A stretch of 32,398 nucleotides of DNA from Acidimicrobiia bacterium (GTDB lineage Bacteria; Actinomycetota; Acidimicrobiia; Spongiisociales; JAENVV01). Made by a program: the position numbers and the translations under genes. Shown here piece after piece: positions 1,921 through 26,616 of the stretch. Location of the stretch: NCBI GenBank assembly GCA_016650365.1, contig JAENVV010000030.1, positions 1 to 32,398 on the forward strand. The letters run 5' to 3'. The notes under the pieces were generated by a model. That model saw only the letters and a program-made list of their open reading frames with translations, had not been told where the DNA came from and did no database searches. Numbering within the stretch: position 1 is the stretch's first letter; the number at the start of each line of letters is the position of its first letter.

Positions 1921-2031
1921 ATAGCGACCCTTGAGGGACTTACGCCCTCCAAAAGGGCCGAAAGTCTCATTGCCGACCTGCACCAACAGGAACCAGACTG
2001 CCTCCACAACCAATTATTGGAGGAGGCGTCG

Positions 2032-2274
2032 ATGGGGGTCTTTACAAACGACAAGCTCCCTGGTCCCGGGATCGGTGCGTCCACCAACATCATCGACCAC
2101 ACCCGATGCCCGGGCGGTCGCACCTGCATACTCCACGCCTCAATCGGTTCAACGGCCCGGGGCGCCGGAAGTGACCACGCCGACAAAGTCCAAGCCTTCA
2201 TTGAGCTCGCCGGTCATTGCCCGTACGACGCGGTCACCGTGCTCGTGGGTGACTCGCAGAACAGAGCTTCATGA
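2032..2274 (+). CDS. Small ferredoxin-like protein (three-cysteine pattern)
   Basis: This is an 80-aa open frame with a strong Shine-Dalgarno sequence, GGAGGAGG at 2019-2026, five nt before ATG 2032. The protein has exactly three cysteines in the order C-x5-C (CPGGRTC) and, about 35 residues later, C-P-x-x-A (HCPYDAVTV). That arrangement resembles small actinobacterial [3Fe-4S] ferredoxins, which pass electrons to P450s and other oxidoreductases, although the N-terminal half is atypical. Its TGA overlaps the ATG of the next gene (ATGA at 2271-2274), which suggests coupling. No P450 or reductase is nearby. The function is inferred from the cysteine spacing only. Confidence 0.45.
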   Translation: MGVFTNDKLPGPGIGASTNIIDHTRCPGGRTCILHASIGSTARGAGSDHADKVQAFIELAGHCPYDAVTVLVGDSQNRAS

Positions 2275-2750
2275 TCATGTCACCCCGGGCCAATCACTTG
2301 CTTGTCCAGCACACGGCTGACGTGGCCGTCCCGTTCGACGAGGCCAGTGATCGGATGCAACGCCATCTGGACATGCTTCTCGCCGACGTACACGGCGCAT
2401 TGGAATACGGCGAGAGTATCCGGACCAGACTCGGAGCGGGCGGCAACCAGTTTCACATCGAGAAGTCCGTCAACATGACCATTGGTGCACCGCTTGAACT
2501 GACCGACCGTTTGGTCGTACCGTTGTGGTGGGAGGCAACCGGCCCACAGTCCCTATTCCCACGGATGGATGCAGATCTCATTCTGACCGACCGGGAGAGC
2601 TTCGGATCAGACCTCACCTTCCGGGGCCAATACTCCCCTCCCCTCGGACCGTTGGGCGAACTCATCGACCGCCTCATGCTCCATCGGTTGGCCGACGCCA
2701 CGGGTCGCCAGTTCGTCGAAACAGCAGCCCGAGCCCTTACGGGCGCCTAG
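2271..2750 (+). CDS. SRPBCC-like (START-fold) hypothetical protein
   Basis: This is a 159-aa soluble protein with no signal peptide. The alternation of beta-type segments, the sequence around FRGQYSPPLGPLG, and the final long amphipathic helix (ELIDRLMLHRLADATGRQFVETAARAL) resemble SRPBCC/polyketide-cyclase-like proteins, which bind hydrophobic ligands in a deep cavity. The start overlaps the stop of the ferredoxin-like gene by 4 nt; a second in-frame ATG lies at 2277. The specific ligand cannot be inferred. The fold assignment is moderately supported. Confidence 0.6.
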   Translation: MIMSPRANHLLVQHTADVAVPFDEASDRMQRHLDMLLADVHGALEYGESIRTRLGAGGNQFHIEKSVNMTIGAPLELTDRLVVPLWWEATGPQSLFPRMDADLILTDRESFGSDLTFRGQYSPPLGPLGELIDRLMLHRLADATGRQFVETAARALTGA

Positions 2751-3016
2751 CACTACGACCTCCACATCGTCGAAGATCTGCATCAGATGCTCGTACCGCG
2801 CGGAGATTGGGTACCACTTGGCAACGCCGACGAGCAGAAGGAACCTCCGGAAGGGTCGGTTGATGCCTGGGCACGTTCAAGCGATAACCCCATCGATGGT
2901 TGGTACGATTGAGAAAGGATCTCAGAGGTCGGGTCGGCAACTACGTCGCTCCAGTTCTCGAAGGCCCCGCCGAAGTCGAGCACAACGCTCGCAACAACCG
3001 CATGCGGGCCATCTAG
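2751..3016 (+). pseudogene. Possible frameshifted gene remnant, family unknown
   Basis: Directly after the previous stop, the same frame stays open to TGA 2910-2912 with protein-like composition (for example VPLGNADEQKEPPEGSVDAW). A second frame then continues from about 2909 to TAG 3014-3016 (for example GRVGNYVAPVLEGPAEVEHN). Neither part has a convincing start or Shine-Dalgarno sequence. Joined, they would read as one polypeptide of roughly 85-90 residues with one frameshift. I do not recognise the family. It could also be non-coding sequence with chance open frames. Confidence 0.25.
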
Positions 3017-3026
3017 CTTCGCCTGT

Positions 3027-3055
3027 CGATCGCTTGGCACGAAAAAGAGCGATCG
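3027..3055. other. 8-bp hairpin CGATCGCT/AGCGATCG
   Basis: CGATCGCT at 3027-3034 pairs with AGCGATCG at 3048-3055 across a 13-nt loop. It lies just after the stop of the possible remnant. No T-run follows, so terminator function is only a guess. Confidence 0.35.
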
Positions 3056-3098
3056 CGGTTGCGATTAGGTGGCAGCAGACACCCACTCACACCGCCAT

Positions 3099-3219
3099 GA
3101 TGGCCCACGGCGGAGATGCTCATGCCAACTTGATGGAAGGCAAAACCGATGCCGAGATGATGCAGAAGAAGGCCGAGATGGACGCCCACATCAAGAAACT
3201 CATCGAGCAACACAACTAA
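3099..3219 (+). CDS. Small charged hypothetical protein or gene tail
   Basis: This short frame starts with a double ATG and gives about 39 residues. It is rich in Met, Lys, Glu, Asp and His, with a strongly helical end (DAEMMQKKAEMDAHIKKL). No good Shine-Dalgarno sequence precedes ATG 3099. The same frame stays open upstream to 2818, so this may be the 3' end of something longer or degraded. Two hairpin-prone segments (3231-3245 and 3259-3273) follow. No family is recognised. Confidence 0.3.
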
Positions 3220-3230
3220 TCCAACCGGCC

Positions 3231-3273
3231 GCGACCCCCTGTCGCGTTTGTGCAAGGGGCGGCCTTCGGCCGC
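3231..3273 (+). terminator. Two consecutive hairpins, possible terminator
   Basis: GCGAC at 3231-3235 pairs with GTCGC at 3241-3245 (5 bp, 5-nt loop). Next, GCGGCC at 3259-3264 pairs with GGCCGC at 3268-3273 (6 bp around TTC). They lie 12 nt downstream of the small charged frame and upstream of the YCII-like remnant. There is no long T-tract, so the terminator call is tentative. Confidence 0.35.
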
Positions 3274-3348
3274 TGTCGAAAACGGCCTGGCTTGTTCGTT
3301 GGTGAGCAGCACGTGGCGAACCAGGCCGCCGGGACCAAGGAGCATGCA

Positions 3349-3549
3349 ATGGCCAAGTACCTATTGGCATCTTGCGGCGGCGGAGCGAATCCCGTGACCG
3401 GATACAGCATCGTTGAGACAGATTCAATAGCGTCCGCTCTGGGCCTCACCACGAGTTGCCCGATCCTCGATGACGCCGGCACGGTCGAACTCTGCGAGAC
3501 CTTCAATGTAGGCAGATTTCTTCGTCGAGTGTCCATCCTCGTTCGATAA
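3349..3549 (+). pseudogene. YCII-like (DGPF-type) protein with internal deletion
   Basis: The ATG at 3349 has a good Shine-Dalgarno sequence (AAGGAG, 6 nt spacing). The first residues MAKYLLASCGGG match the beta-strand start of YCII-related proteins. The next part, GYSIVETDSIASA...CPILDDAGTVELCETFNV, matches their C-terminal half. Full-length relatives are about 90-120 aa. Here the two ends join after only about 15 residues, so the central stretch, about 40 residues in the family, is missing. A short unrelated tail (GRFLRRVSILVR) follows the usual end. The gene is probably non-functional, although transcription signals look intact. It ends just before the right copy of the inverted repeat. 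Confidence 0.5.
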
Positions 3550-3552
3550 TCC

Positions 3553-3575
3553 AATCTGGATGCACACTCGATTGA
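3553..3575 (-). repeat. Right copy of 23-bp inverted repeat
   Basis: This is the exact reverse complement of 103-125. The identity ends sharply on both sides (23 of 23, then mismatches). It sits only 10 nt from the stop end of the ABC importer operon at 3586. Together the two copies bracket about 3.4 kb containing the ABC-F gene and the loosely packed small genes. Confidence 0.85.
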
Positions 3576-3585
3576 AGGAAACGGT

Positions 3586-4629
3586 CTAGCCGGATACCCG
3601 TTCCGGGTCGAGGTCCTGGTGTGCGCCGGTACGCAGATGGCAGGCGGCCAAATGATCGACCGAATCGCCGGCGACCTGAATGAGTTGGGGAGCATCCACG
3701 TTACAAATGCCCTCGACCGCGATCGGACACCGGGGATGAAACCGGCAACCCGGCGGAGGATTGATCGGGTTGGGGATTTCGCCCGGGGGTAGCGGCTCAA
3801 GGCGCCGGTGAAGGGGGTCCGGAACCGGAACCGCATCGAGCAACGCCCGGGTGTAGGGATGCTGGGGATGTTCATAGATCTCGGCGAGGGTACCGATCTC
3901 GATAATCTCCCCGAGATACATGATGGCGATCCGATCGCACACATACTTGGCCGTCGCCAGGTCGTGGGTGATGAACAGATATGTGAGGTCGAACTCTTCC
4001 TTAAGTTTCATCATGAGATCGAGCAACACAGCTCGAACCGACACGTCGGCCATTGCGATTGGTTCGTCGGCAACAATCAGCTCGGGCGCCGTAATCAAGG
4101 CTCTGGCGATCACGATGCGTTGGCGCTGGCCTCCCGAAATCTGGTGCGGGTACTTGCCGTAATACAGCTCTGGTGGGCTCATTCCAACATCGTCGAGCAG
4201 TGTTAGTACCCGCTGGGTTCGTTCTTGAGCGCTGAGCTCCGGCAAGTGGATCAAGGCCGGGTGTTCAATCGCCTGGCCGATGGTCATCCGGGGGTTGAGT
4301 GAGGCGAGCGGATCCTGAAAGATCACCTGCATGCGGCGACGGGTTTGACGGAGTTCCTCACGGGACATGGCGCCGAGATCCTGGCCGTCGAACAACACCT
4401 GGCCGTCGGTTGCATCCAGCAATCGAATTGCCAGACGACCAACCGTCGATTTACCGGATCCCGACTCCCCGGCCAGGCCGAAAACCTCGCCGCGCCGGAT
4501 TTCAAAAGTAATTCCATCTACCGCCCGAACGTTCTTCTTCTCACCGCGATCGAGAAGATTGGCGATCAGGCCCTTGGTAACCGGGAACCACTTGCGTACC
4601 CCGACGAATCGAACGAGTGCATCACTCAT
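3586..4629 (-). CDS. Oligopeptide/dipeptide ABC importer ATPase (OppF/DppF type)
   Basis: This is the second ATPase of a peptide-type importer and powers transport through the two permeases upstream in the operon. Its 347 residues include Walker [10 protein letters not shown] (54-62), Q-loop Q105, signature ISGGQ (164-168), Walker B with VADEP (to 190) and H-loop H222. The family-typical C-terminal extension has four cysteines (about 295, 301, 309 and 330), as in OppD/DppF proteins where they can bind an Fe-S cluster. The D-loop reads AMAD instead of the usual SALD. The start overlaps the stop of the partner ATPase by 4 nt (4626-4629). It is last in the operon. Confidence 0.92.
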
Positions 4630-5612
4630 CGGGCGAGCTCCACCGTCTGGTCATCGTATAGCCAGCAGGCGGTCTCCTGGTCGGCCCGCACCGCGCGCAG
4701 GACCGGCACCTGGTCCGAACAGATCGGCAAAGCCTTTGGACACCGTGGATGGAAGGAGCACCCGGGTGGCGTGAACGCCAGGTTGGGCGGTGAACCGTCC
4801 ATCTTGTACAGCTCCTGACCGTCCAACTCGATGTTGGGTACCGACTTCAAAAGACCTTCTGCATACGGGTGCAAGGGTCTGGCAAACACATCTCTAACGT
4901 CGCCGATCTCCGCCATTCGGCCCGCGTACATGACGGCCACGCGGTCGGCGATCTCGGCGACCACCCCGATGTTGTGGGTGATCATCACAATCGTCAGGTC
5001 GAACTCGTCGCGTAGTTCTCTCAATAGGTCAAGGAATTTGGCCTCAACGATTACATCCAGAGAGGTGGTCGGTTCGTCGGCGATCACGAGATCGGCATGC
5101 AATGCCAGAGCGAGGGCAATCATCACGCGCTGGCGCATGCCGCCCGAAAACTGATGGGGGTAATCGTCGATCCGCTCGCGACGAATCCCGAGTCTCTCGA
5201 CGAGTTCGGAGGCCCGGGTCCGAGCGCCTGCCGCGGTGGTGGTCTTTTCGTGGGCGAGAATCGTCTCCGTGAGGTGATCGACTATCCGCTGAACCGGGTT
5301 CAGCGAGGTCATCGGGTCTTGAAACACCATTCCCAGCCTGCTGCCCCGAAGCGAACGCATCTCGCGAGAGGACAGCGTCATAAGGTCATGACCGCCAAAC
5401 AGCAACTGACCGCCAGTGATTTCGCCCGGCTTCGTGATCATTCGTAACATGGCTTTGCCAAGTGTGGATTTCCCGCATCCCGACTCGCCAACCAGGCCAA
5501 GGATCTCATTCTTGCGAATATCGAACGAGACGTCGTTGACCGCCTTCACCGGTCCCTGCCTGGTTCCGTACTCGACCGACAGGTTGCGGACGGAGTAGAG
5601 AGCGTCAGTCAT
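4626..5612 (-). CDS. Oligopeptide/dipeptide ABC importer ATPase (OppD/DppD type)
   Basis: This is the first ATPase of the importer, 328 aa. It has Walker [10 protein letters not shown] (42-50), a Q-loop in [10 protein letters not shown] (about 97-106), signature FSGGM (155-159), Walker [11 protein letters not shown] (about 177-186) and H-loop H213. The C-terminal peptide-transporter extension carries cysteines near 285, 291, 298 and 316. Its ATG overlaps the permease stop (ATGA at 5609-5612), and its own stop overlaps the next ATPase, so the last four genes form a tightly coupled unit. The exact solute cannot be told from the ATPase. Confidence 0.93.
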
Positions 5613-6874
5613 CGTTCACGCAACTTTGGATTGAATATTTCCATGAGTCCCTCACCAAGCATCGTGAAGGTCAGGACCACGATCATGATGGCCAGGCCAG
5701 GGAACGTCGAGAGCCACCAGGCGTTCTGGATGGCTTCTCGACCCTGGTTGAGATCGGCTCCCCAATCGGGGATGTTGGGAGGCAGGCCGAGACCCAGGAA
5801 CGACAAAGCCGCTCCGGTGAGAATGGCGTCGGCAACGTTGACCGAGAAAATAATGGCTACCGATGGAATCACATTCGGGAACACATACTTACGAACGACC
5901 TGGCTGACCCGAGCACCAATCGATCGGGCAGCTTCGACGTACAACTCTTCTTTGACCGAAAGGGTTTGGCCGCGCACAATCCGGTAGTAGGTGGGGATGT
6001 ACAGGACAGATATGGCCACCACCACGTTGAGGACGCTCGGACCAAGCACGGCCGTAATGGCAATCGCCAGGATCAAACCCGGAAAGGCATACATCGAATC
6101 CATGATGAGCGAGATACCGCGATCGAGTGCTCCACCGGCATACCCCGCCAATAGTCCAAGGGGTACGCCAATCACCAAGGCCGCCAGAGCGGCGGCAAAA
6201 CCTATGAGGAATGCCACGCGCGTCCCGTGAATCAATCGGCTGAGCACATCCTGGCCGAGTTGATTGGTACCGAGGATGAAGCCACCCTTCTGAACTGCGC
6301 CTTCCTCCATCGCGATGGGACCGACCTCGGCGATCGTCGGGTATCCACCAAGGAGCGGCTCCAGAACCAGCGACGAGCCACCCGCAGCAATGACTTCCCC
6401 ATCGGTGAGAGCGGTGAGCATTTGTTCTCCAGTGTCATACCGCTCGACCTTCAACCGAATCCGCTCATCTATGCCTGCCGCAGCGAGTTCTTGTGTCAGC
6501 CGATCAGCCTCATCGCGGGCTGCTTCGGATGCGTTGCTGCCGGCGACTACCCCGAATGGGACACGACCATCGCGCGGAAGATCGCCAATGCCGCCGATGC
6601 CACTGTCTTCAAGCGTGAGAAGAATCAACCGATCAGGATCGGCTCCCGGGGCCAGGAGCCGGGGACCGACCTGGGCCAACGGATCATGCGGAGCAAAGAC
6701 ACCAGGAAACAGGGCAAGTGCAAACAAAACCACCAAAACAACCGCACTGATGGCAACGAACCACCAATCGACGCCATACCAACGCCGGGCCACAAACATG
6801 CGTCTGACCAACCCCACCCGCTCAAGTTCAGCGGACAACAGGTTGTCAGGATCGAGAGGAGAATCGTTCGACAT
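5609..6874 (-). CDS. Peptide-type ABC permease (OppC/DppC type) with inserted domain
   Basis: This is the inner-membrane permease of the importer, 421 aa, longer than the usual 280-320. The first membrane helix is at about 38-60. The family-typical GTNQLGQDVLSRL stretch comes only at about 202-214 and is followed by five further membrane segments. The coupling EAA-type motif (EAARSIGARVSQVV) is near 314-327. Between 78 and 197 lies an extra segment predicted to be outside the membrane, with short VPFGVVAGSN- and GEVIAAGGSS-like stretches that recall a periplasmic binding-protein lobe. The start overlaps the end of the upstream permease by 1 nt. Substrate specificity is unknown; peptides, or nickel- and opine-like solutes, are possible. 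Confidence 0.9.
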   Translation of the reverse strand: MSNDSPLDPDNLLSAELERVGLVRRMFVARRWYGVDWWFVAISAVVLVVLFALALFPGVFAPHDPLAQVGPRLLAPGADPDRLILLTLEDSGIGGIGDLPRDGRVPFGVVAGSNASEAARDEADRLTQELAAAGIDERIRLKVERYDTGEQMLTALTDGEVIAAGGSSLVLEPLLGGYPTIAEVGPIAMEEGAVQKGGFILGTNQLGQDVLSRLIHGTRVAFLIGFAAALAALVIGVPLGLLAGYAGGALDRGISLIMDSMYAFPGLILAIAITAVLGPSVLNVVVAISVLYIPTYYRIVRGQTLSVKEELYVEAARSIGARVSQVVRKYVFPNVIPSVAIIFSVNVADAILTGAALSFLGLGLPPNIPDWGADLNQGREAIQNAWWLSTFPGLAIMIVVLTFTMLGEGLMEIFNPKLRER

Positions 6875-7971
6875 CAGTACCGCACCCGCGGGTCAAGCAG
6901 TGAATACAAGATATCTACGGCAAGCGAAATCATGGCGACAAAGATCGCAAACATCGTGACAACGCTTTGCACGGCCGTGAAGTCGCGAGCCAAGATTCGA
7001 TCAATGAGATACCGGCCCATGCCTGGCCAGGAAAACACCGACTCGGTCAAGACGGCTCCCGCCAACAGGATCGCCACCTGGAGACCGATCAAGGTCACCA
7101 CCGGGATCATGGCATTCTTCAAGGCGTGGCCATAGACGACCACCAGCTCCTTGATACCTCGAGCCCGAGCCGCGGTGATGTAATCCTGCTGGAGCGTCTC
7201 GATGACGTTGATACGGGTCAGTCGAACGAAGACGCCTGACAGAACCAGCCCGAGCGTGGTGACAGGCAGAACGAGGTGAATCAGAACGCTTCGAAACGCC
7301 ACCCAGTTTCCGGACAAAACGGAATCAATGACAAGAATATTCGTCGTACGTTCCAGCCCGATCCCGGTGATCGCGTCGATACGGCCCGAGACCGGCAGCC
7401 AGCCCAATTTCACACTGAAAATGAGCTGAAACATCAATCCGAGCCAGAAAACTGGAATCGAGTAGATGATCACCGAGAACAGGCGAATGGCGTAGTCAGG
7501 CGCCTGTCTTCGTCGGTGAGCGGCAATCGTTCCAGGGATCAGGCCGATCAGCAGAGCAAGCACGGTCGCCGGCACCACCAGCTCCAGCGTGGCCGGGAAC
7601 CGTTCGCCCATTTCATCCGCAATCGGACGGCGGCCCTCGGTCAACGCAGTCCCGAGGTCAAACCTGGCGACATCGCCCAAGAAGCGACCGTATTGAACGA
7701 TCAGCGGGTCGTTGAGACCCAGATCGTCGATCATTCTGGCTTTCAGCTCCGGCGAGCCCCTTGGCCCGAGCGCACTCGTGACAGGATCACCGGGAAGCAA
7801 CCGCAGAACCACGAAGATCACGGTCGCCAGAATAAAGATCATTGGAAGGGTGAGGATGATCCGGGTTACGACATAGCGCCGCAAACCTGAGCTTCCCCGC
7901 ACAAACACATATGTCAAACCCGCCAAAGCAGGAATACCGATTATCAGGAATGTGAGTGCCAAAGGATGCAC
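6874..7971 (-). CDS. Peptide-type ABC permease (OppB/DppB type)
   Basis: This is the second permease, 365 aa. The usual family start corresponds to about residue 30 (LRRYVVTRIILTLPM). Here an additional hydrophobic helix at about 4-24 precedes it. I keep the GTG start at 7971 because AGGAGG lies upstream at suitable distance. Conserved elements include the LLPGDP stretch (58-63), the DLG segment after helix 1 (105-107), and an EAA-type loop (ITAARARGIKELVVVYGHALKNAMIPV, about 265-291) that contacts the ATPases. The Shine-Dalgarno sequence can be hidden in a hairpin formed with the 3' UTR of the binding-protein gene (7978-8019). Confidence 0.92.
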   Translation of the reverse strand: MHPLALTFLIIGIPALAGLTYVFVRGSSGLRRYVVTRIILTLPMIFILATVIFVVLRLLPGDPVTSALGPRGSPELKARMIDDLGLNDPLIVQYGRFLGDVARFDLGTALTEGRRPIADEMGERFPATLELVVPATVLALLIGLIPGTIAAHRRRQAPDYAIRLFSVIIYSIPVFWLGLMFQLIFSVKLGWLPVSGRIDAITGIGLERTTNILVIDSVLSGNWVAFRSVLIHLVLPVTTLGLVLSGVFVRLTRINVIETLQQDYITAARARGIKELVVVYGHALKNAMIPVVTLIGLQVAILLAGAVLTESVFSWPGMGRYLIDRILARDFTAVQSVVTMFAIFVAMISLAVDILYSLLDPRVRY

Positions 7972-7977
7972 CCAGAT

Positions 7978-8043
7978 CCTCCTCTGAAGAACGGGAAAAT
8001 CGGAAACAGTCAGAGGAGGGGGCGGGACGTCCGCCCCCTCCTC
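7978..8043 (-). promoter_or_regulatory. Mutually exclusive hairpins between binding-protein and permease genes
   Basis: Stem A pairs 8013-8025 with 8031-8043: 13 bp without mismatch, GC-rich, 5-nt loop. Stem B pairs CAGAGGAGG (8011-8019 on the plus strand) with CCTCCTCTG (7978-7986): 9 bp. In the minus-strand transcript, stem B covers the AGGAGG Shine-Dalgarno sequence of the permease gene that starts at 7971. Bases 8013-8019 take part in both stems, so only one can form. Stem A begins 17 nt after the binding-protein stop and lacks a T-tract, so it fits 3'-end protection or partial termination that keeps SBP mRNA in excess. The switching is inferred from pairing alone. Confidence 0.6.
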
Positions 8044-8060
8044 CGATCGTCAATACCGTG

Positions 8061-9794
8061 TTATTTGCTGGTATCCAGCAACTCGTAGTGCAGATCGAAC
8101 GTCGGCCCAATGTTCAGGGATTCGATCGTTGCCGCGGCATCGTCGGCCGAGATGTAATCCCAGTAGACGACATGCTCCGGCAGGAAGAACAGCGGCAACG
8201 TGGTTACGTTCTCGGCGAACTTCTCCTGCAGGTCCGCATACAAGGCTGCCCGGGCATCCACATCCGTTTCGGTGCCTGCCTGGACCAGCAGGTCCATGAG
8301 CGCCTGGGCGTCGGCGTCAATCGGCTCGTTGGTGTCGGGGTCGGTAATCATGGTTCCGAGTCCACCGTTGTTCATGAACGGGGCCAGATAGTTGTCCGGG
8401 TCCGGATAGTCGAAGAACCAGCCCAACAGCGAAACCGCATAGTCCTGGCCTCCGATGACGGCCCCGATGTAGGTTGACCACTCTTGAGAGATGATCTCAA
8501 CATCGATCATGCCGGACGCCTCATACTGCTCGCTGAGGAGCTGAATAAGGTCGGCTGCCGTGCCACCGTAGTGCTCTGGCGGATACGCGACCTGGAGCTG
8601 AAGCTTATTCGTCTCCGAATAGCCCGCCGCCGTCAAGAACGCCTGAGCGGCCGGAATATCGGGAGCACCGAACACATCGTCGAACGCCTCATTGGCTCCA
8701 AGGAAGCCGACGGGGATCATCGAATAGAGCGGTTCGGCAGTTCCGGCATAGACCCGGTCGGAGATTTCGTCACGGTCGACGAGCGCCGCGAGGGCTTTTC
8801 TCACATCCGCATTGTCAGTGGGTGCCAGTTGATGATTGATAACCATGAACCGCACACCACCGCCGGGAACGGTGCCCACAGTCAGACCGTCGACGCCTTC
8901 GAGTTCCGCCAGCAGATCTGGTTGGCCGATGGTCCGCCAGGCAATATCGATCTCACCCCTGCCGTCTTTAACAGTTTCGATGGCTTTGGCCATCGTCGGA
9001 GCGTCGTTGAAGTAGCGGATGATGATTCGGTCGACCTTCGGAGCAGGAGCGGAACCGGCGTAATACGGGTTCGGCTCCAATACCGTCTGCTCCCCTGGAA
9101 CATACTCGGTGATCATCCACACGCCGACACCGTAGACCGGCGCGTCGGGGAACTCGACGAGGGCATCCAACGGAAAATCAGGGTGCATAGGCATATACGG
9201 TGCACCGGTCACGACCTGGGGGAAGTAACCGAAAGCATCCTTCAGGGTGATCTCCACCGTGCGGTCGTCGACGGCCCGATAGGACTCGATAAATGGTGTG
9301 CCAAGCGCACCACCGACGCCGCCGGATCCGTCAAGCGTAAGCATGCGGGTGAGATGATCAACATACATGTTGGCGTCCAACTCGGTACCGTCGCCAAAGA
9401 AAATGTCATCTCGCAGATTGAACGTATAGACAAGTCCGTCATCACTTACCGAGTAGTCACTCGCCAAACCGGGAACGATGTCGGTCGTACCTGGAGCAAA
9501 GCTAAGCAAAGCCTCTCCGATGTTCCGGAGGAGTTCCCAGTCGTGAATGGCGTAGGCGTCGGCAGAGTCAAGTCCGGCGATCGAGTCTGTCGTTCCGATA
9601 ATGATCGTTTTCGGACCTGCAGGTTCGGCAGGCACCGTTGTATCGGTTGACCCGGTTGTCGTGGTCGGTGCTGCTGCCGTTGTGTCGGGCGTGTCAACCG
9701 CGGCCACGGTGGTGGTCGAAGAATCTCCCCCACAAGCGGCGGCCAACACCGACAAAACAACCAGCAGAACAAGCCATTTAGTGGTTCGTTTCAT
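8061..9794 (-). CDS. ABC importer substrate-binding lipoprotein (SBP family 5, peptide type)
   Basis: This is the extracytoplasmic solute receptor for the importer encoded downstream. I start at ATG 9794, preceded by an AAGAAGGGA-type ribosome site, although the frame stays open to 9968. This gives 577 aa beginning with MKRTTKW, a hydrophobic helix and the lipobox LAAAC, then a Thr/Ala/Asp-rich spacer of about 45 residues. The mature part has the family-5 order: an N-terminal GTTDSIAGLDSADAYAIHDWELLRNIGEALLSF-like lobe; DDGLVYTFNLRDDIFFGDGTELDA, typical of DppA/OppA proteins; and a C-terminal FFDYPDPDNYLAPF stretch. It is first in a five-gene operon and separated from the rest by a strong hairpin. 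Confidence 0.93.
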   Translation of the reverse strand: MKRTTKWLVLLVVLSVLAAACGGDSSTTTVAAVDTPDTTAAAPTTTTGSTDTTVPAEPAGPKTIIIGTTDSIAGLDSADAYAIHDWELLRNIGEALLSFAPGTTDIVPGLASDYSVSDDGLVYTFNLRDDIFFGDGTELDANMYVDHLTRMLTLDGSGGVGGALGTPFIESYRAVDDRTVEITLKDAFGYFPQVVTGAPYMPMHPDFPLDALVEFPDAPVYGVGVWMITEYVPGEQTVLEPNPYYAGSAPAPKVDRIIIRYFNDAPTMAKAIETVKDGRGEIDIAWRTIGQPDLLAELEGVDGLTVGTVPGGGVRFMVINHQLAPTDNADVRKALAALVDRDEISDRVYAGTAEPLYSMIPVGFLGANEAFDDVFGAPDIPAAQAFLTAAGYSETNKLQLQVAYPPEHYGGTAADLIQLLSEQYEASGMIDVEIISQEWSTYIGAVIGGQDYAVSLLGWFFDYPDPDNYLAPFMNNGGLGTMITDPDTNEPIDADAQALMDLLVQAGTETDVDARAALYADLQEKFAENVTTLPLFFLPEHVVYWDYISADDAAATIESLNIGPTFDLHYELLDTSK

Positions 9795-9993
9795 AAATAG
9801 TCCCTTCTTGTATGCATCCAGCCAGGCAGATGCGGCACCTAAACTACAACTCCCAAGTCGATCGCGCTCACGCACGGCCGGAATCGCAACGCGAACGCTA
9901 GCCCGCCAGCCGCGGGTCGTCGAAAAACGATCTGATTGCGATACTGCTCGCAAGACGATTCGGCCCACATGTCTTGCTCTACCCTATGTTCTG
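9795..9993. promoter_or_regulatory. Divergent intergenic region between SBP and CLC genes
   Basis: This 199-nt gap separates the divergent binding-protein and CLC genes, so promoters for both must lie here or overlap the genes. The SBP side carries a clear ribosome site. The CLC side has no Shine-Dalgarno sequence before ATG 9994 but has ACCCTATGTT just upstream, compatible with a -10 box and a short or absent leader. I see no operator palindrome strong enough to name. Confidence 0.35.
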
Positions 9994-12069
9994 ATGGTTA
10001 GCCGATTCCTTAACAAGCCCAAGCGAGACGAGGCCGGGCCCGCCTTAAGTACCACCGGAGACACCGCGGCATTCCTTGGCGTGTCTGTCGTGGTCGGGGT
10101 CCTGGTCGGAGCGGCCGCGGCAGTGTTGATCTGGTCCACCGACGGGCTCTCTGAAACGCTCGGCCGACTTGGCGAAGGGTGGGGAGCCGGCAAATACCTG
10201 GTTCTCATCACCCTTCCTCTCGGCCTGTGGGCGGCTCACACGATCTCAAAACGATTCGCTCCCGACACCATCGGCGACGGCGTCCCGGAAGCCACAGCTG
10301 CGCTGGCCCTGCACTCGGGCTATTTGCCTACCCGGTCCCTATTCTACAAGATCCTCGTGACCGCATTGTCCATTGGCGGTGGCGGGTCGGCCGGCCGGGA
10401 GGGTCCGATCGTGCAGATCGGCGCCACTATCGGATCGTCGATCGCCCGCCATACTGGCCTTACCGAGGACCAGGTCAAGAGCCTGGTCGCCGCAGGAGCC
10501 GGGGCCGCAATTGGCGCCGCCTTCAACGCCCCTATCGCCGGCATGCTGTTCGCCATGGAGGTCATCCTCGGAAACTTCGCGACCCGACACCTCAGCTCCG
10601 TCGTGGTTGCGTCGGTGGCCGCGGCCGTCACCACCCGGAGCCTGGTCGGTGCTGAAGAAGCAGCACTGCGTGCTCCCCTCTACCTACTCAATGACCCACG
10701 TGAGCTATTCCTTTACGCGATTCTCGGCCTTCTGGTGGTACCGGTCGCCTGGGCGTTTCTGAAACTTCTCGACCGAGCAGAGCGTCCTCCCGAATGGATC
10801 GCCAAACGAAGCTGGCTGCGTCCAATCACCTTTGGTCTGATCGTGGCGGGGCTCGGCGTCATTGAGCCAAGTATCCTCGGGACCGGGCAAGACTTCATCA
10901 ACGAAGTCCTCCGCGCCGCGACCGGGGGTTCGTTTGTTTGGTACACCCTCTTGGCCATAATGGCGCTGAAGGTGCTGGCAACGTCCATCACGCTTTCGTC
11001 GGGAGGGTCTGGTGGGGCGTTCTTCCCCAGTCTCTTCATCGGTGCGACGCTTGGCGCCTCGTTCGCTCTCTTCGTGGCGCCGATCTGGGGCTTTTCCTAC
11101 CTCAATCCGGGAGCATTCGCGGTCGTCGGAATGGCGGCCACCTTCGCGGCTGTCGGACGAGCCCCATTGACGGCGATCCTGATCGTGTTTGAAGTAACTG
11201 GACTCGAATACGGCCTGGTGCTTCCGCTCATGCTGACAACGATTCTGGCAACGGCAGTCGTTGACCGTATCCACCCCGAGAGCGCCTACACCATGCCGCT
11301 CGTGAGACGAGGAATTCGACTCGTCCGGACCACGGAAGTCGACTTACTCGACACCGTCAGCGTGCGCCAGGTCATGGCTCCGCCGCGCTCCGTACCTCCG
11401 ACCTACACCCTCGACGAAGCCAGTGCTGTTTTTGACCAATACCGTCACCACGGACTTCCGGTAGTCGACAAGGACCGGCTGGTCGGAATCCTGACAGTGA
11501 CCGACATCGTTCGGGCGCGGGCCACCCCAGACAAGCCAACCGCCCGGGAGGCGATGACGACCCGGCCCGTAACGGTGACCCCCGACACCCATGTATCGGT
11601 AGCACTCGAGCGCATGGCCGCTCTAGGCGTCGGGCGACTCCCGGTTGTCGCCAACGACAACCCGAACAAGCTGGTCGGCATTTTCGGCCGGGACGGGGCA
11701 GTTCAGGCCTACCACATCGGTCTGGCATCCAGCACCGGCCAAAGTCTCGACCGTCAGCGGTTCCGGCAACGGACCGACCCGGGGGCTTCGTTCTTCGACT
11801 TCCGCATTCCGCCCGGATCCGTGGCCGACGGACAACCACTGCGCGTCGTTCCATGGCCCGAAGGTTGCACCCTTGTATCGGTTCGGAGGGGTAGAGCGGT
11901 GATGGTGCCAACGGGTGATACTGCGCTCATGGCCGGCGATGTCATTACGGCATTCGGCACCACGGGCGGCCGGAGCAGGGTCATCGAACGACTCAATGCC
12001 ACGGCTGACGAACCCACCGCCGAGATCATGCTCCACGACGTTGCGGAATCCGGGCCGGAAGAGAAATAG
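9994..12069 (+). CDS. CLC-family chloride channel/transporter with CBS pair and TrkA-C-like domain
   Basis: This is a membrane anion protein of 691 aa. The start at ATG 9994 is chosen because the upstream open frame runs antisense through the SBP signal region. The ion-path motifs are GDGVP (94-98, GSGIP position), GREGP (134-138) with gating glutamate E136, GGSGGAFFP (337-345) and Y432 in the last helix (EcClC Y445 equivalent). The internal proton glutamate of EcClC (E203) aligns with V190 in FAMEV, the residue found in CLC channels. Cytosolic CBS domains lie at about 455-510 and 520-572. Then a TrkA-C/RCK-C-like domain (about 600-668) ends the protein. Channel-type conduction is suggested by V190 but not proven. 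Confidence 0.92.
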   Translation: MVSRFLNKPKRDEAGPALSTTGDTAAFLGVSVVVGVLVGAAAAVLIWSTDGLSETLGRLGEGWGAGKYLVLITLPLGLWAAHTISKRFAPDTIGDGVPEATAALALHSGYLPTRSLFYKILVTALSIGGGGSAGREGPIVQIGATIGSSIARHTGLTEDQVKSLVAAGAGAAIGAAFNAPIAGMLFAMEVILGNFATRHLSSVVVASVAAAVTTRSLVGAEEAALRAPLYLLNDPRELFLYAILGLLVVPVAWAFLKLLDRAERPPEWIAKRSWLRPITFGLIVAGLGVIEPSILGTGQDFINEVLRAATGGSFVWYTLLAIMALKVLATSITLSSGGSGGAFFPSLFIGATLGASFALFVAPIWGFSYLNPGAFAVVGMAATFAAVGRAPLTAILIVFEVTGLEYGLVLPLMLTTILATAVVDRIHPESAYTMPLVRRGIRLVRTTEVDLLDTVSVRQVMAPPRSVPPTYTLDEASAVFDQYRHHGLPVVDKDRLVGILTVTDIVRARATPDKPTAREAMTTRPVTVTPDTHVSVALERMAALGVGRLPVVANDNPNKLVGIFGRDGAVQAYHIGLASSTGQSLDRQRFRQRTDPGASFFDFRIPPGSVADGQPLRVVPWPEGCTLVSVRRGRAVMVPTGDTALMAGDVITAFGTTGGRSRVIERLNATADEPTAEIMLHDVAESGPEEK

Positions 12070-12204
12070 CTGCCACGCTTTGTGGTCAACCGGACAGCCT
12101 CGTTCGGCCTAATTTCGGGACCGCCGGTAGCCTGCACTCCAACCAGTACGCCTTCGGCCAAACCGGCGTTCACCCGGTGGACGCCAACTGAGGAGACAAC
12201 CCAT

Positions 12205-13401
12205 TTGACCAAGTGCAGACAGCTCCTGGCGTTGCTAGCAGTTCTAGCGTTACTGGCCGCAGCCTGCGGAGGTCAATCAACCGCCAGAACCACCGTCACA
12301 ACCGGTGATACCCTCGGGGCGGCCGATCCTATAGACGCCTCCACACCCGAAACCACGGAAGACGATTCCGCCGCCAAGCCTGGCGAAGGAATCGAGCTGA
12401 CCATGGCGCGCGCCAACTGGTCGTCCGGCTATTTCCAAGCAGCTGTGTACCGCCAACTCCTAGAAGAGCTTGGCTACATCGTCTCAGACCCATCCGAGCT
12501 CGAACTTAGCCCGTCGACGGCGTACCTCGGTATGGCCCAGCACGATTTCGACTTCTGGGTCAACAGCTGGTACCCGGGCCACGCGAGCTGGCTCGCTACC
12601 GAACTGCCTGACGGAACGAAGGTCGGCGACCATGTCAGCGTGGTGGGTGAGGAAATGATGGCCGGCGGGCTGCAGGGCTATCTGATCACCAAGGCCTTCG
12701 CCGACGAATACGGCGTCACCCATCTCGATCAGATCAATGATGATCCGGAGATCCTGGCTGCCTTCGACGCCGGCGACCCGGTCCCCGGAAATGGCATCGC
12801 CGACATTTACGGCTGCCCGGAGACCTACACCTGCGACAACGTCATCGCGAACCAGATTGCTTTTTCCGGTTGGGAGAACATCCGCCAGATGATCGCTGAT
12901 TACGATTCCATGGTTGGTGAGGCAATATCAAAGGCACAAGCCGGCGAGCCGATGATTATCTACACCTGGACGCCCAGCGCACCTATTACGAAGCTCATTC
13001 CGGGTACCAACGTTTACTGGCTAGCGGTCGACGAAGTCATCGACGACTCCAACCCGACCAACCAGGAAGGCGGCGAGTCCCACGACCAGCGGCCCGGAAC
13101 GGCCAACCTCGGGGCGGATGTCTGTCCGGCTGCAGCCGGCGCAGATACGTGCCAACTCGGGTGGATTGCAGCTGACATTCAGGTGACTGCCAACAACGAC
13201 TTCCTGGTCGAGAACCCGGCTGCCGCCAAACTGTTGGAACTCGTCAAGCTCCCGATCGTCGACGTTTCGCTCGCAAATATCGAACAGGATGGCGGACGCA
13301 ACAGCAACGACGATGTCAACGCCCTGGCGTCCGAGTGGATCGCGAACAACCGCGACTTCGTCGATGCCTGGATCAACGAGGCAGCCGCGGCAGGCAACTA
13401 G
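12205..13401 (+). CDS. Glycine betaine/proline-type ABC substrate-binding lipoprotein (ProX/OpuAC family)
   Basis: This is a secreted lipoprotein receptor for quaternary-ammonium-type solutes. The TTG at 12205 is the best start: GAGGAG at 12190-12195 precedes it by 9 nt, and the protein then opens with a basic end, a Leu/Ala-rich helix and an AAAC lipobox. Length is 398 aa. Family features include the early WSSGYF segment, the STAYLGMAQHDFDFWVNSW stretch and YTWTP near the C-terminal half, with several Trp/Tyr/Phe residues that could form the aromatic cage for a trimethylammonium group. No betaine permease or ATPase gene adjoins it, so it must work with partners encoded elsewhere. The substrate is assigned only to family level. 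Confidence 0.85.
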   Translation: MTKCRQLLALLAVLALLAAACGGQSTARTTVTTGDTLGAADPIDASTPETTEDDSAAKPGEGIELTMARANWSSGYFQAAVYRQLLEELGYIVSDPSELELSPSTAYLGMAQHDFDFWVNSWYPGHASWLATELPDGTKVGDHVSVVGEEMMAGGLQGYLITKAFADEYGVTHLDQINDDPEILAAFDAGDPVPGNGIADIYGCPETYTCDNVIANQIAFSGWENIRQMIADYDSMVGEAISKAQAGEPMIIYTWTPSAPITKLIPGTNVYWLAVDEVIDDSNPTNQEGGESHDQRPGTANLGADVCPAAAGADTCQLGWIAADIQVTANNDFLVENPAAAKLLELVKLPIVDVSLANIEQDGGRNSNDDVNALASEWIANNRDFVDAWINEAAAAGN

Positions 13402-13436
13402 CCACGGCGTTGGCCCTTGGTGGCTATGTTCTGGAT

Positions 13437-13880
13437 ATGCACACGTCAATTCGCCCCTTGCAGGCGAGCGACTGGCCAGAGTGGCGACGTCTCTGGACGG
13501 CCTACCTCGACTTCTACAAGACAACTGTCCCGGACGCTGTGTATGCCACCACATTTGCCCGCCTGTTGTCCGATGACGCCCACGAGTTTTCCTGTCTCGT
13601 CATTGAAACTGAAGCGGGACTCGGCGGACTCGCCCATTTCTTGTTCCATCGCGACACGTGGACCACGGCTGATACGTGCTACCTCGAAGACCTCTATGTC
13701 GACGAACCTGGGCGCGGCACGGGCCTGGGACGGGCTCTGATCGAGGCGGTATACCAACAGGCCGACCTGGCTGGAGCGGCCGGAGTCTATTGGTTGACTC
13801 AAGAGTTCAACACGGCCGGTCGTCGACTCTATGACCGCATCGGCAAGCTCACGCCATTCGTCCAATACGAACGGCCATGA
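13437..13880 (+). CDS. GNAT family N-acetyltransferase
   Basis: This is a cytosolic acyl-CoA-dependent acetyltransferase of 147 aa with the GNAT order of elements. The N-terminal substrate part begins IRPLQASDWPEW. A beta strand plus motif A follows (LEDLYVDEPGRGTGLGRALI); R/Q-x-x-G-x-G at about 93-98 binds the CoA pyrophosphate. The ending EFNTAGRRLYDRIG is characteristic of motif B. ATG 13437 begins 35 nt after the betaine receptor gene, and the preceding sequence has no strong Shine-Dalgarno. The acceptor is unknown; small amines or amino acids are common in this subgroup. Confidence 0.85.
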   Translation: MHTSIRPLQASDWPEWRRLWTAYLDFYKTTVPDAVYATTFARLLSDDAHEFSCLVIETEAGLGGLAHFLFHRDTWTTADTCYLEDLYVDEPGRGTGLGRALIEAVYQQADLAGAAGVYWLTQEFNTAGRRLYDRIGKLTPFVQYERP

Positions 13881-13944
13881 ATAAACCTGCCGTGCCCGGC
13901 TCCCGATGTCTCTATCGTTGAACCCATGAACGTGAGTTCCATCT

Positions 13945-14949
13945 GTGACTAATCCGCTGACCGGCCTCGGCTGGTCCGACCACTGGGAGCGACTCCTCGC
14001 CGGGCGTCCCGGCGAACCAGCGCGGGTGATCCGCCACGACGCCAAAGTTCTTACCGTTCAAACCGCTGAGGGGATCATTCGCATTCCTGTCGATAATTCC
14101 AGCGCCAACATCGTCGTTGGAGACTGGATCACCGTAGACGGGGGACGATTCGGAGCTCTGGCAGAGCGTTCATCGCTGCTCACCCGACCCAACGTTCGAG
14201 GCACGGGTGACCAGGTGCTGGCAGCCAACGTCGACGTCGTGTTCGCGGTCTGCGGGCTGGATCGTCCGCTCCCGGCCGGTCGGGTTGACCGGTTGGCAAG
14301 CCTGGCATGGGACGCCGGAGCCGCCCCCATCCTGGTTCTTTCGAAAACCGATCTCGCTACTGACCTCGCCGATATTCGAAAAGAGATGGAAACGCTCCAT
14401 CCCACGTTGGCCATCCTGGAGGTTTCTGCGACGACCGGTGAGGGCATCGCCGAAATGCGGGATGCCACCGCCGGCAAAACAGCCGTGCTGATCGGGGAGT
14501 CGGGGGCCGGTAAGTCCAGCATTGTCAATGCCATGCTTGGCACCGATGCGGCCGAAACCGGGACGGTTCGGGAAGGAGACGGGAAGGGGCGCCATACGAC
14601 CACCGCCAGACAGATCCACACCGTCCCCACCGGCGGTTGCATCGTCGACAGTCCCGGCATCCGCCAGATCGGGATGGTTGGCAATCCTGATGCAGTCGAT
14701 GCCCTGTTCGATGATGTAACCGACCTGGCGGCCGACTGTCGATTCAACGATTGCTCGCACACTTCGGAGCCAGGATGCGCCATCCTGGCGGCCGTCGAAT
14801 CGGGAGCGGTGGACCCGTTGCGATACGAGCGATGGCGCGATCTGGTTGTTGAAGCGGAAGACACCCAGCAGCGGGCCGATGAGCGGGCCAAACGGGAACT
14901 CGCCAGGAGCCAGGGCCGAGGCTCCAAAGGAAGACCGAGGCGGCGCTAG
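13945..14949 (+). CDS. rsgA: Ribosome small-subunit assembly GTPase RsgA
   Basis: RsgA is a GTPase that checks late maturation of the 30S subunit. The 334-aa protein shows the circularly permuted order of the family: an OB-fold region (about 25-85), then G4 SKTD (133-136), G1 GESGAGKS (184-191) and G3 DSPG (235-238). The C-terminal zinc site C-x4-C-x-H-x5-C follows (C265, C270, H272, C278). The start is GTG 13945: the ATG at 13926 is out of frame and gives an eight-codon frame ending at 13952, which overlaps the GTG and may couple translation. The Lys/Arg-rich tail is compatible with RNA binding. Confidence 0.95.
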   Translation: MTNPLTGLGWSDHWERLLAGRPGEPARVIRHDAKVLTVQTAEGIIRIPVDNSSANIVVGDWITVDGGRFGALAERSSLLTRPNVRGTGDQVLAANVDVVFAVCGLDRPLPAGRVDRLASLAWDAGAAPILVLSKTDLATDLADIRKEMETLHPTLAILEVSATTGEGIAEMRDATAGKTAVLIGESGAGKSSIVNAMLGTDAAETGTVREGDGKGRHTTTARQIHTVPTGGCIVDSPGIRQIGMVGNPDAVDALFDDVTDLAADCRFNDCSHTSEPGCAILAAVESGAVDPLRYERWRDLVVEAEDTQQRADERAKRELARSQGRGSKGRPRRR

Positions 14950-18897: not shown

Positions 18898-18987
18898 GCG
18901 ACGAATGTACCCTGGAACGCTCCATACCGTACATTGGAGAGAGGCTCAACCATGAAAGCTGAACTTGCGCCTAGACTCACGTCATAA

Positions 18988-19090
18988 CCACTCCGGGGAG
19001 CTCGGGCCAACGAGCTGAGAGGGAAGCTGACAACGTCGCTTCCGACCCGCAGAACCTGAACTGGATCATGCCAGCGGAGGAAGCGTGTGG
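18988..19090 (+). ncRNA. TPP (thiamine pyrophosphate) riboswitch, THI element
   Basis: Conserved blocks appear in order: GGGGAGC near 18995, P3 stem AGCTCG/CGAGCT, the THI-box CTGAGAGGG at 19015-19023, an extra stem GGAAGC/GCTTCC (19022-19027 with 19038-19043), GACCCGCAGAACCTGAACTG from 19044, GGATCATGCCAGCGGAGGAA to 19082. The P1 closing stem can pair CCAC at 18988-18991 with GTGG at 19087-19090. It lies directly upstream of thiBPQ, so intracellular TPP should repress thiamine import. A ribosome-site hairpin follows at 19109-19136. Confidence 0.95.
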
Positions 19091-19108
19091 AAACCTCATC
19101 ACAAGTGG

Positions 19109-19140: not shown

Positions 19141-20148
19141 TTGAAACTTTTTGCCACCGTCATCGTCGCCAGCTTCGTCCTGGCCGCCTGCTCGACAACC
19201 ACCACCGACGAACCGGCCGAACTCGTGTTACTCACCCACGACTCTTTCGCCCTATCTGAGGGAACGTTGGACGCGTTCACTGTTGAGACCGGAATTAAGG
19301 TCACGGTTCTCGAAGGCGGTGATGGTGGATCCCTCGTTACGCAGGCGGTTCTCAGCAAGGACAATCCGACGGGAGATGTTCTGTACGGAGTCGATAACAC
19401 GTTGCTAACCCGGGCACTCGACCTGTTCGTGCCGTATGAATCCCCTGCCCTCTCCAACGTCGACCCTTCCCTGGTGACGGACGCACGGGTGACTCCCATC
19501 GACTTCGGTGATGTTTGCCTGAACTATGAGAAGTCCGCCTTTTCCGAGGTCGCTCCCCCCGCGGGCCTTGATGATTTGCTCCAGCCTGCCTACGCCAACA
19601 TGCTCGTTGTTGAGAACCCGGCGACTTCCTCGCCAGGCCTGGCGTTCCTACTGGCAACGATCGTCGAATACGGCGAGGATGGCTGGCAAGACTATTGGAC
19701 GGACCTGCTCGCCAACGGAACGGTCATTGCCCCAGACTGGGAGACCGCCTATTACACCAACTTCACGGGCGGCGGAGGAACCGGATCGCCGATTGTGGTC
19801 AGTTACGCCTCTTCACCACCGGCCGGCGTCATCTTTGCTGAGGAACCGACTGACGAAGCGTTGACTGCCACAGTCACCAATGGCTGCTTCCGCCAGGTCG
19901 AGTACGCCGGAATCCTTAAGGACTCCGAGGCCGCCCGGAAGCTCGTGGACTTCATGCTGTCCAAGGACTTCCAGGAAGACATCCCTCTCAACATGTTCGT
20001 CTTCCCTGCCCGCACCGACGCGGCGCTACCTACCGAGTTTGTCGACTACACCGAGATTCCTTCTAACCCCCTGACCATGGACCCCGAAACGATCGACGCC
20101 AATCGCGACCGATGGATTGACGAGTGGACCCAAATCGCCGCTCCCTAA
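19141..20148 (+). CDS. thiB: Thiamine ABC transporter substrate-binding lipoprotein ThiB
   Basis: This is the extracytoplasmic receptor for thiamine or its phosphates. Starting at TTG 19141 gives 335 aa with a short basic end, hydrophobic helix and a clean LAAC lipobox. GGAGGAGG lies 7 nt upstream. GTG 19087 is a longer option, but it would put a Ser/Gly-rich extension before the signal. Family stretches include LTHDSF, DVLYGVDNTLL, PIDFGDVCLNYEKSAF, ENPATSSPGLAFLL and the C-terminal DRWIDEWTQI, which parallel E. coli TbpA. It is the first gene of thiBPQ and sits behind the TPP riboswitch. Confidence 0.93.
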   Translation: MKLFATVIVASFVLAACSTTTTDEPAELVLLTHDSFALSEGTLDAFTVETGIKVTVLEGGDGGSLVTQAVLSKDNPTGDVLYGVDNTLLTRALDLFVPYESPALSNVDPSLVTDARVTPIDFGDVCLNYEKSAFSEVAPPAGLDDLLQPAYANMLVVENPATSSPGLAFLLATIVEYGEDGWQDYWTDLLANGTVIAPDWETAYYTNFTGGGGTGSPIVVSYASSPPAGVIFAEEPTDEALTATVTNGCFRQVEYAGILKDSEAARKLVDFMLSKDFQEDIPLNMFVFPARTDAALPTEFVDYTEIPSNPLTMDPETIDANRDRWIDEWTQIAAP

Positions 20149-25523: not shown

Positions 25524-26616
25524 CAGCCGGGAACGTTAGCGGTCCCCAGATATCCGCGTTGTGGTCACCGAAAGTATCGCGAAATGCGACCTAGACCACT
25601 CTCAGCGGTATAAGGTGTACGTGAAGCGAGGTTGATGCTGGGAGGCGATTGAAGTCAGTCTGAGCAAATCCCTGGCCGACTGACTCACACAACGCGGTCA
25701 ATTCCCAGTACCTTGCTTCACTGGCTGGCGTCGCCCTACCCCCTTTGGGCGGCGCCGGCCAACCTTTTCTTTCCACCGGACCGTCGCGTCGCCTATCAGG
25801 TGCTGGACGGATCACAAGATCCCCCCACCCCATCCGTTGCGTATGCCGGCTACGTACTTGCATTCCTTGGAGCCCGCACAATCAAAACCTGGAAATCAAA
25901 AGCCGGCTGCTGGTGACAAAACGGCTTTGCCTAGCTGGGAATCGGTCGCGCTCGGTGATTCGGTCTCGCAGACGCAGAAACGGTTGCGCCTATTCCCTCC
26001 GCTCCGCAGTGGTCGCTGGTTTTTCGGACCGGTAGTTTCGACGTCCTGACCGAGGCTTTCATGTTCGGGAGTCCGCGGCGAGTCCGCACGGAGACGGGGT
26101 GTGGTGCTCAATCAGGGCAGTGAGGTGACGACCCAGCTGGCGATGGCGACGCACGCCTGAGCGCGTTCGACGGCCTTGGCGGCTGCCGAAAGTGGGATCT
26201 TGTCAGGCTCGTACTCGGCCTTGGTCTTCATGGGGAGCAAACGCAAGACGCAGGACCGATTATGCGACAAAAGAACCCGACCCAGGCATCGCCCGCTCGC
26301 AGCGCGATCGCGCACAGAACCCTCCTTTCCATCGAAGTATCGCACTCATTGAGTCGACGAAGAGGGCGAAGCGGTCGACATAATGAACTCCCAGAATCCA
26401 TGTGTCCCCTCCCGGGCTTGGTCAGGCAGCGGTGTGCTTGATAACGCGACAGGCGCTACTCCCTCGCCACCGAAAAACCTGAAACGAGCCTCCCGGACCC
26501 AAAATCCTGCATTGAATGAATGTAAGGTATCAGAACTGTTGGGAGCGGACTGTGTGAAATTTGCCGCTATCCACCGGACAGGATCGACGGCGAAAGCCTA
26601 TCTGGAGGTAGAAATC
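25524..26616. other. 1.1-kb region without a convincing gene
   Basis: I find no recognisable product on either strand. Elements seen are: the inverted pair GTGGTC (25561-25566) and GACCAC (25593-25598); an 8-bp stem AGTCAGTC/GACTGACT (25653-25660 with 25678-25685, 17-nt loop); and a short minus frame from ATG 26231 to 26112. Other open frames on both strands have compositions untypical of proteins. The 3' part must carry the promoter of the downstream importer operon and possibly that of the upstream EamA gene, but no clear -35/-10 pair stands out. Confidence 0.5.
26112..26231 (-). CDS. Small open frame of 39 codons, doubtful
   Basis: ATG 26231 opens a frame with a sensible-looking sequence (MKTKAEYEPDKIPLSAAAKA, then a short hydrophobic stretch ACVAIASWVVTSL). 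No good ribosome site precedes it (CTCCCC). The mixture of a charged N-terminus and a hydrophobic end could be a small membrane peptide or the start of a lost gene. Nothing is recognised. Confidence 0.2.
   Translation of the reverse strand: MKTKAEYEPDKIPLSAAAKAVERAQACVAIASWVVTSLP

Follow-up and report, generated by a model that had tools for sequence, protein, structure and literature searches.

Here we report that, within a peptide-type ABC importer operon of an Acidimicrobiia bacterium, a short mRNA carrying only the substrate-binding protein (SBP) gene likely ends at one constitutive hairpin, and that this hairpin probably sets the SBP to permease ratio through a known kind of mechanism. 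The operon lies on the minus strand of a 32,398-nucleotide stretch (assembly GCA_016650365.1, contig JAENVV010000030.1), which was analysed at its full length and is referred to below as the window. An initial annotation had also proposed that an intergenic structure sets this ratio; comparative evidence and published precedents agree with that part, while the second stem that had been placed over the ribosome site of the permease is left unsupported.

The order of the operon is SBP, hairpin, two permeases and two OppD/OppF-type ATPases, the genes for permease 2 and the ATPases following permease 1 with overlapping ends (Table 1), and it is a peptide-type ABC importer. The SBP gene, whose likely start is the ATG at 9794 within a longest open reading frame beginning at 9968, encodes a lipoprotein-type signal, MKRTTKWLVLLVVLSVLAAACGG, recognised by eye. 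A gap of 89 nt separates its stop codon (8063-8061) from the GTG start of the DppB/OppB-type permease at 7971. This permease has an extended N-terminus with an additional hydrophobic stretch, HPLALTFLIIGIPALAGLTYVFVRGS (7870-7971, minus strand), and similar stretches begin the permease in many related loci. A search against Rfam 15 at the gathering score found no family in 7972-8060; the two matches in the window were a tRNA and a TPP riboswitch, both located elsewhere. The riboswitch (RF00059, 69.5 bits, 18984-19099) precedes an SBP_bac_8 gene (match 19270-20061), behind which lies a permease open reading frame; together these probably belong to a thiamine importer.

Table 1. Features of the importer operon and of its intergenic structures in the window
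Feature	Position	Strand	Remarks
Substrate-binding lipoprotein gene (SBP_bac_5, peptide-type SBP)	8061..9794	-	PF00496 1.4e-72
Whole hairpin with outer extension	8005..8051	-	20 pairs, -38.8 kcal/mol
Stem 1, 5' arm, UCGGAGGAGGGGGCGG	8031..8046	-	stem kept in three same-genus loci
Stem 1, 3' arm, CCGCCCCCUCCUCUGA	8010..8025	-	includes 8011-8019, the 5' side of proposed stem 2
CAGAGGAGG, permease Shine-Dalgarno (SD), 3' side of proposed stem 2	7978..7986	-	unchanged in L004 and L005
Permease 1 (DppB/OppB type), GTG start	6874..7971	-	PF00528 1.7e-40; Opp2B-like 1.5e-87, a match under the curated cut-off of that family
Permease 2 (DppC/OppC type)	5609..6874	-	family searches
ATPase (OppD/DppD type)	4626..5612	-	family searches
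ATPase (OppF/DppF type)	3586..4629	-	family searches

The 13-bp stem that the initial annotation had described is present in the gap as a perfect core (8043-8031 with 8025-8013) and exceeds chance expectation. It extends to 16 bp with one G·U pair at 8044/8012 and a loop of 5 nt, further with the outer extension, and begins 14 nt after the SBP stop codon. When the gap was shuffled 60 times with dinucleotides preserved, no shuffle matched the folding energy of the hairpin, and the two fold z-scores on the minus strand were -4.67 and -4.10, with 0/200 shuffles as good in each case. The U-tract that follows is weak, with 4 U among the next 8 nt. A terminator pattern scan requiring 5 T in 8, run over positions 2000-14000, returned 9 sites against a shuffle mean of 9.5, and stem 1 was absent from its matches.

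Conservation of the hairpin was examined in 37 SBP-permease gaps, 14 from the order of the window (Acidimicrobiia, we infer) and 23 from Chloroflexota. Relatives of the SBP (E <= 1e-90) were found in 14 of the 138 genomes of that order, own genome included, and a sample of 395 genomes of the class held no additional close relatives. Among named genome contigs a scan located 26 loci: the 23 from Chloroflexota, all new, and three that duplicate loci already collected from the order. In 36 of the 37 gaps the best hairpin beat all 60 dinucleotide shuffles; for one locus, L060, the permease start is unsure and only the first 147 nt of the gap were used. At the 37th locus, L053, a stem of 10 bp closes a loop of 13 nt (-18.8); this locus entered the tests of arm-SD pairing, tails and arm bias described below with a minor 6-bp hairpin, as the search there allowed loops of up to 10 nt. 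The letters of the arms differ widely between genera while the position stays. Closer to the window, the stem is retained in all three same-genus loci, and the covariation check suggested for it gave paired changes: in L005 two G-C pairs are A-U, changed on both sides (the two outermost pairs falling on alignment gaps), and in L004 a G-C replaces the G·U pair of the window. Judged by these comparisons, stem 1 is a real, conserved hairpin.

Similar hairpins stand behind other SBP genes. Hairpins were counted as strong if they reached -19 kcal/mol and lay no more than 90 nt beyond the stop codon, with the energy threshold set after seeing the data. Only two of the 22 window genes examined have one, and both are SBP genes, the second being 26383-27675 with an NMT1 domain. 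The hairpin after this second gene (27702-27739, -39.5 kcal/mol) is U-poor, equals that of the peptide importer in strength, and lies within the 5' part of the following open reading frame (27682-28515) if the first ATG is the start. Two further SBP genes of the window lack a strong hairpin, the ProX-type gene 12082-13401 (-7.0) and the SBP_bac_8 gene at 19270 (L089, -7.9).

Across the genome of the window, 11 of 15 SBP genes from three Pfam families (window SBP included) have a strong hairpin, compared with 13/118 control genes (Fisher 6e-7); these controls were longest-ORF gene calls rather than curated genes. When the controls were restricted to those followed on the same strand by a gene 40 nt or more away, the count was 1/30 (1.4e-6 against the SBP genes). 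Both L105, which has a strong hairpin and by eye resembles a lipoprotein gene, and contig C120, with which the SBP gene L083 and its weak hairpin very likely entered, were retained among the controls. The four SBP genes below threshold were L079, L083, L089 and L090, and L087 was dropped from the count as it lies at a contig end. An overlapping set, SBP-like lipoproteins matched by the SBP query, gave 14/17; this set and another of 21 own-genome SBP-like genes were selected either for their similarity to the SBP query or for their family, and part of the genes had the family checked. In the relatives, strong hairpins follow 18 of 28 Peripla_BP_6 genes against 2 of the 19 genes following them, and 20 of 29 SBP_bac_5 genes against 0 of 14. 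These samples are the loci returned by the search: for Peripla_BP_6 one per genome (29 genomes, one dropped), and for SBP_bac_5 29 loci from 28 genomes, of which L154, L156 and L164 are orthologs of the window SBP. L120 was dropped from the relatives' count, having no downstream room.

Three convergent pairs of open reading frames in the own genome (L113:1322-3093, L113:9636-11244 and L097:212-1879) share a U-poor GC hairpin between their ends. The pairs are longest-ORF calls, and one member, L113:9636-10445, looks spurious by eye. Such shared hairpins fit a 3'-end role, as if they were two-way 3' ends.

The arms of these hairpins are biased in composition. G exceeds C in the 5' arm of every one of the 15 strong hairpins that follow other SBP-like genes in the own genome, in 30 of the 38 strong hairpins of the relatives (5 against, 3 equal), and in 33 of the 37 related loci (3 against, 1 equal), which are mutually related; in 13 control hairpins the split was 10 to 3, which is not significant (p = 0.09). 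Since base pairing alone does not require a G-rich 5' arm, the bias suggests that these hairpins act at the level of the sense transcript. The bias is also relevant to whether the gap holds a mobile or repeated palindrome without a role in expression, as a GC palindrome sitting in a gap might suggest: the bias is strand-specific, the position of the hairpin is kept as its letters change, and no second copy occurs in the genome, so that we give this explanation almost no weight. When the 3.49-Mb draft genome was searched with the gap sequence, no further copy was found, the second match being the gap's own inverted match, and a repeat element was rejected on this basis.

The preferred reading, a constitutive hairpin at the 3' end of an SBP-only mRNA, could act in two ways. 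As first choice, a fraction of RNA polymerases would halt or let go of the transcript at the hairpin (leaky termination); additionally or instead, the hairpin would block 3'-5' exonucleases once the downstream part of the transcript is cut. By either route SBP mRNA would accumulate above permease mRNA. The two are compatible: leaky termination is our first choice as the main effect, with a chance just short of even, and a decay barrier is a tentative, lower-ranked candidate for the same place. Against a 3'-end hairpin stand the weak U-tract in the window, the lack of a significant U excess in the tails described next, the distance of only 14 nt between stop codon and stem, the four of 15 SBP genes below the threshold together with the ProX-type gene of the window, and the similar, though non-significant, arm bias of the control hairpins.

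The tails following the hairpins were compared over 36 loci, which are related and from which L060 was left out. Sense tails held 4.36 U per 8 against 3.81 in antisense tails, no significant excess (Wilcoxon p = 0.15), and U-tract enrichment was on that account discarded as proof of termination. At least 6 U in 8 occurred in 11/36 sense and 3/36 antisense tails (Fisher 0.03), a threshold chosen afterwards. A pure exonuclease barrier, in which the operon would be transcribed at full length, cleaved in the permease part and its decay halted at the hairpin, as in malE-malF, would accord with the very stable GC stem, with the weak U-tract of the window and with tails free of significant U excess. 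It would also accord with the decay-regulated ABC operons of E. coli, where, in the part of the source cited here, the stabilised gene is always the SBP (PMC5927463). The U-rich class among the sense tails looks like termination instead, and the pure barrier is a plausible alternative that we think somewhat improbable.

Among the literature matches listed, only two reports were judged direct precedents for a ratio-setting hairpin (PMC9045158, PMC5927463). The first is a study of cellulolytic Clostridia in which internal intrinsic terminators stand behind SBP genes (Wu et al. 2022, PMC9045158); in the cited passages, all 16 of the 16 predicted SBP stem-loops of R. cellulolyticum terminate prematurely to some degree, with efficiencies of 20.7 to 96.1%. 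The window resembles that arrangement in having a stem-loop directly after a 5' SBP gene and ahead of the downstream transporter genes and in the long GC-rich stem (here a 16-bp core), and its U-poor tail is like that of Types II and IV of the same source; it differs in phylum, and in being known from sequence where the Clostridia have measured termination (PMC9045158). By the same account the Clostridial terminators have a 3' U-rich tract, though often a U-poor one, and the SL-0885 stem without its U-rich tail gave no termination (PMC9045158). The second precedent concerns E. coli, where the SBP part of malE-malF and of four other ABC operons is stabilised against decay; as there, where SBP mRNA is favoured over permease mRNA, a structure occupies the gap, whereas the window, judged from the cited part of that source, differs in carrying a single GC hairpin without another genome copy, known from sequence (PMC5927463). 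In a literature search for Acidimicrobiia, no paper with that word was among the matches listed.

Mycobacteria belong to another class of Actinomycetota. 'I-shaped' intrinsic terminators with a poor U-tract have been reported from them but are disputed, the point at issue being whether the U-tract can be dispensed with, and, as described in the passages cited, the hairpin of the window is like these in being a GC hairpin shortly after a stop codon with a poor U-tract (PMC12288462). In E. coli, a terminator close to the stop codon can be repressed by the ribosome, as seen in some constructs, with termination efficiencies near 0.12 for a distance of 17 bp in one series and near 0.8 for 18 bp in a second series (PMC4824070).

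According to the initial annotation, stem 1 would compete with a second stem of 9 bp that closes the ribosome site of the permease, making the gap a two-state switch. The complementarity exists in the window: CCUCCUCUG (8019-8011), within the 3' arm of stem 1, can pair with CAGAGGAGG (7986-7978), which is the SD and ends 6 nt before the permease GTG (7971-7969). All nine positions are complementary, with p = 0.002 against 500 shuffles of the SD window (the pairing having been picked out afterwards), and the duplex, at -19.8, is the best among the SD windows of 20 window genes, the next reaching -15.6. Arm-SD duplexes were also scored in L004 (p = 0.002) and L005 (p = 0.050), and when the model was made to keep the 5' arm unpaired, the window and L004 formed an arm-SD stem but L005 did not.

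Comparison of the loci argues against such a switch. The test set beforehand was whether stem 2 is conserved where stem 1 is kept; an intact stem 2 occurs in the window alone, and both same-genus relatives have lost pairs of it while keeping stem 1. Because L004 has G-C in place of the G·U pair of stem 1, its stem 2 is down to 8/9 pairs, with a C-A mismatch; L005 has 7/9, one of the seven being G·U and the losses one mismatch and one alignment gap, and in neither does the SD carry a compensating change. Among the 37 loci, AGAGGAGG stands before the permease only in the three of the same genus; it is absent from the 33 others with a placed start (the start of L060 being unsure). Arm-SD duplexes reached p <= 0.05 in 5 of 36 loci, L060 left out, three of these being the same-genus loci; the other two, L013 and L040, are the only ones with p<0.05 among the remaining 33, about chance level.

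The energetics are also unfavourable. Stem 1 comes first in transcription and has much the greater stability, and in the unconstrained equilibrium model the SD is paired with the 3' arm at a probability of only about 1e-4 for the window and 5e-4 for L004, rising to about 5% (5e-2) for L005. The footprint of a terminating ribosome extends about 12 nt past the stop codon; as the stop codon lies 14 nt from the core stem, such a ribosome would not be expected to keep the 5' arm unpaired. With stem 2 not conserved and poorly favoured in the equilibrium model, the two-state switch was rejected as highly improbable. Its complementarity is probably a by-product of the arm bias, going by sequence composition: G-rich 5' arms go with pyrimidine-rich 3' arms, which can take on a likeness to an anti-Shine-Dalgarno, though just 4/37 loci, 2/15 own-genome hairpins and 3/38 in relatives have CCTCC in the 3' arm. 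In the window such an arm meets a strong SD, and the bias, we infer, brought about stem 2.

Structure local to the permease start (7953-8001, minus strand), where UUUUCC can pair with the SD GGAGGA and the GUG lies in a 7-bp stem, might lower permease translation independently of stem 1. In the model most SD bases are seldom unpaired (in the window the probability is 0.05-0.12 for the final five of GAGGAGG), and the UUUUCC pairing counts 8/8 in the window, 8/8 in L004 and 6/8 in L005. This pairing is, however, confined to one genus and to three related, partly coding sequences, and the z-scores of the three start regions are only -1.41, -1.49 and -2.33 (-1.76 for a shorter stretch of the window), which makes this explanation unlikely.

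On the preferred reading of a 3'-end hairpin, the arrangement of SBP gene and hairpin described in Clostridia and E. coli holds in uncultured Acidimicrobiia, where it is a habit that can be counted genome-wide, and in Chloroflexota it holds for this peptide-type importer. A strand-specific G-rich arm without a consistent U-tract bears on termination without U-tracts, or on transcript protection, in such lineages. The locus also carries a warning that an apparent SD-masking alternative can arise simply from pyrimidine-rich 3' arms. More speculatively, and with doubt prevailing, dedicated U-poor hairpins with G-rich 5' arms may be a standing 3'-end signal behind the SBP genes of several importer families in Acidimicrobiia, and possibly in Chloroflexota; if so, a strand-specific terminator or decay barrier without a U-tract would fix the receptor-to-channel ratio genome-wide.
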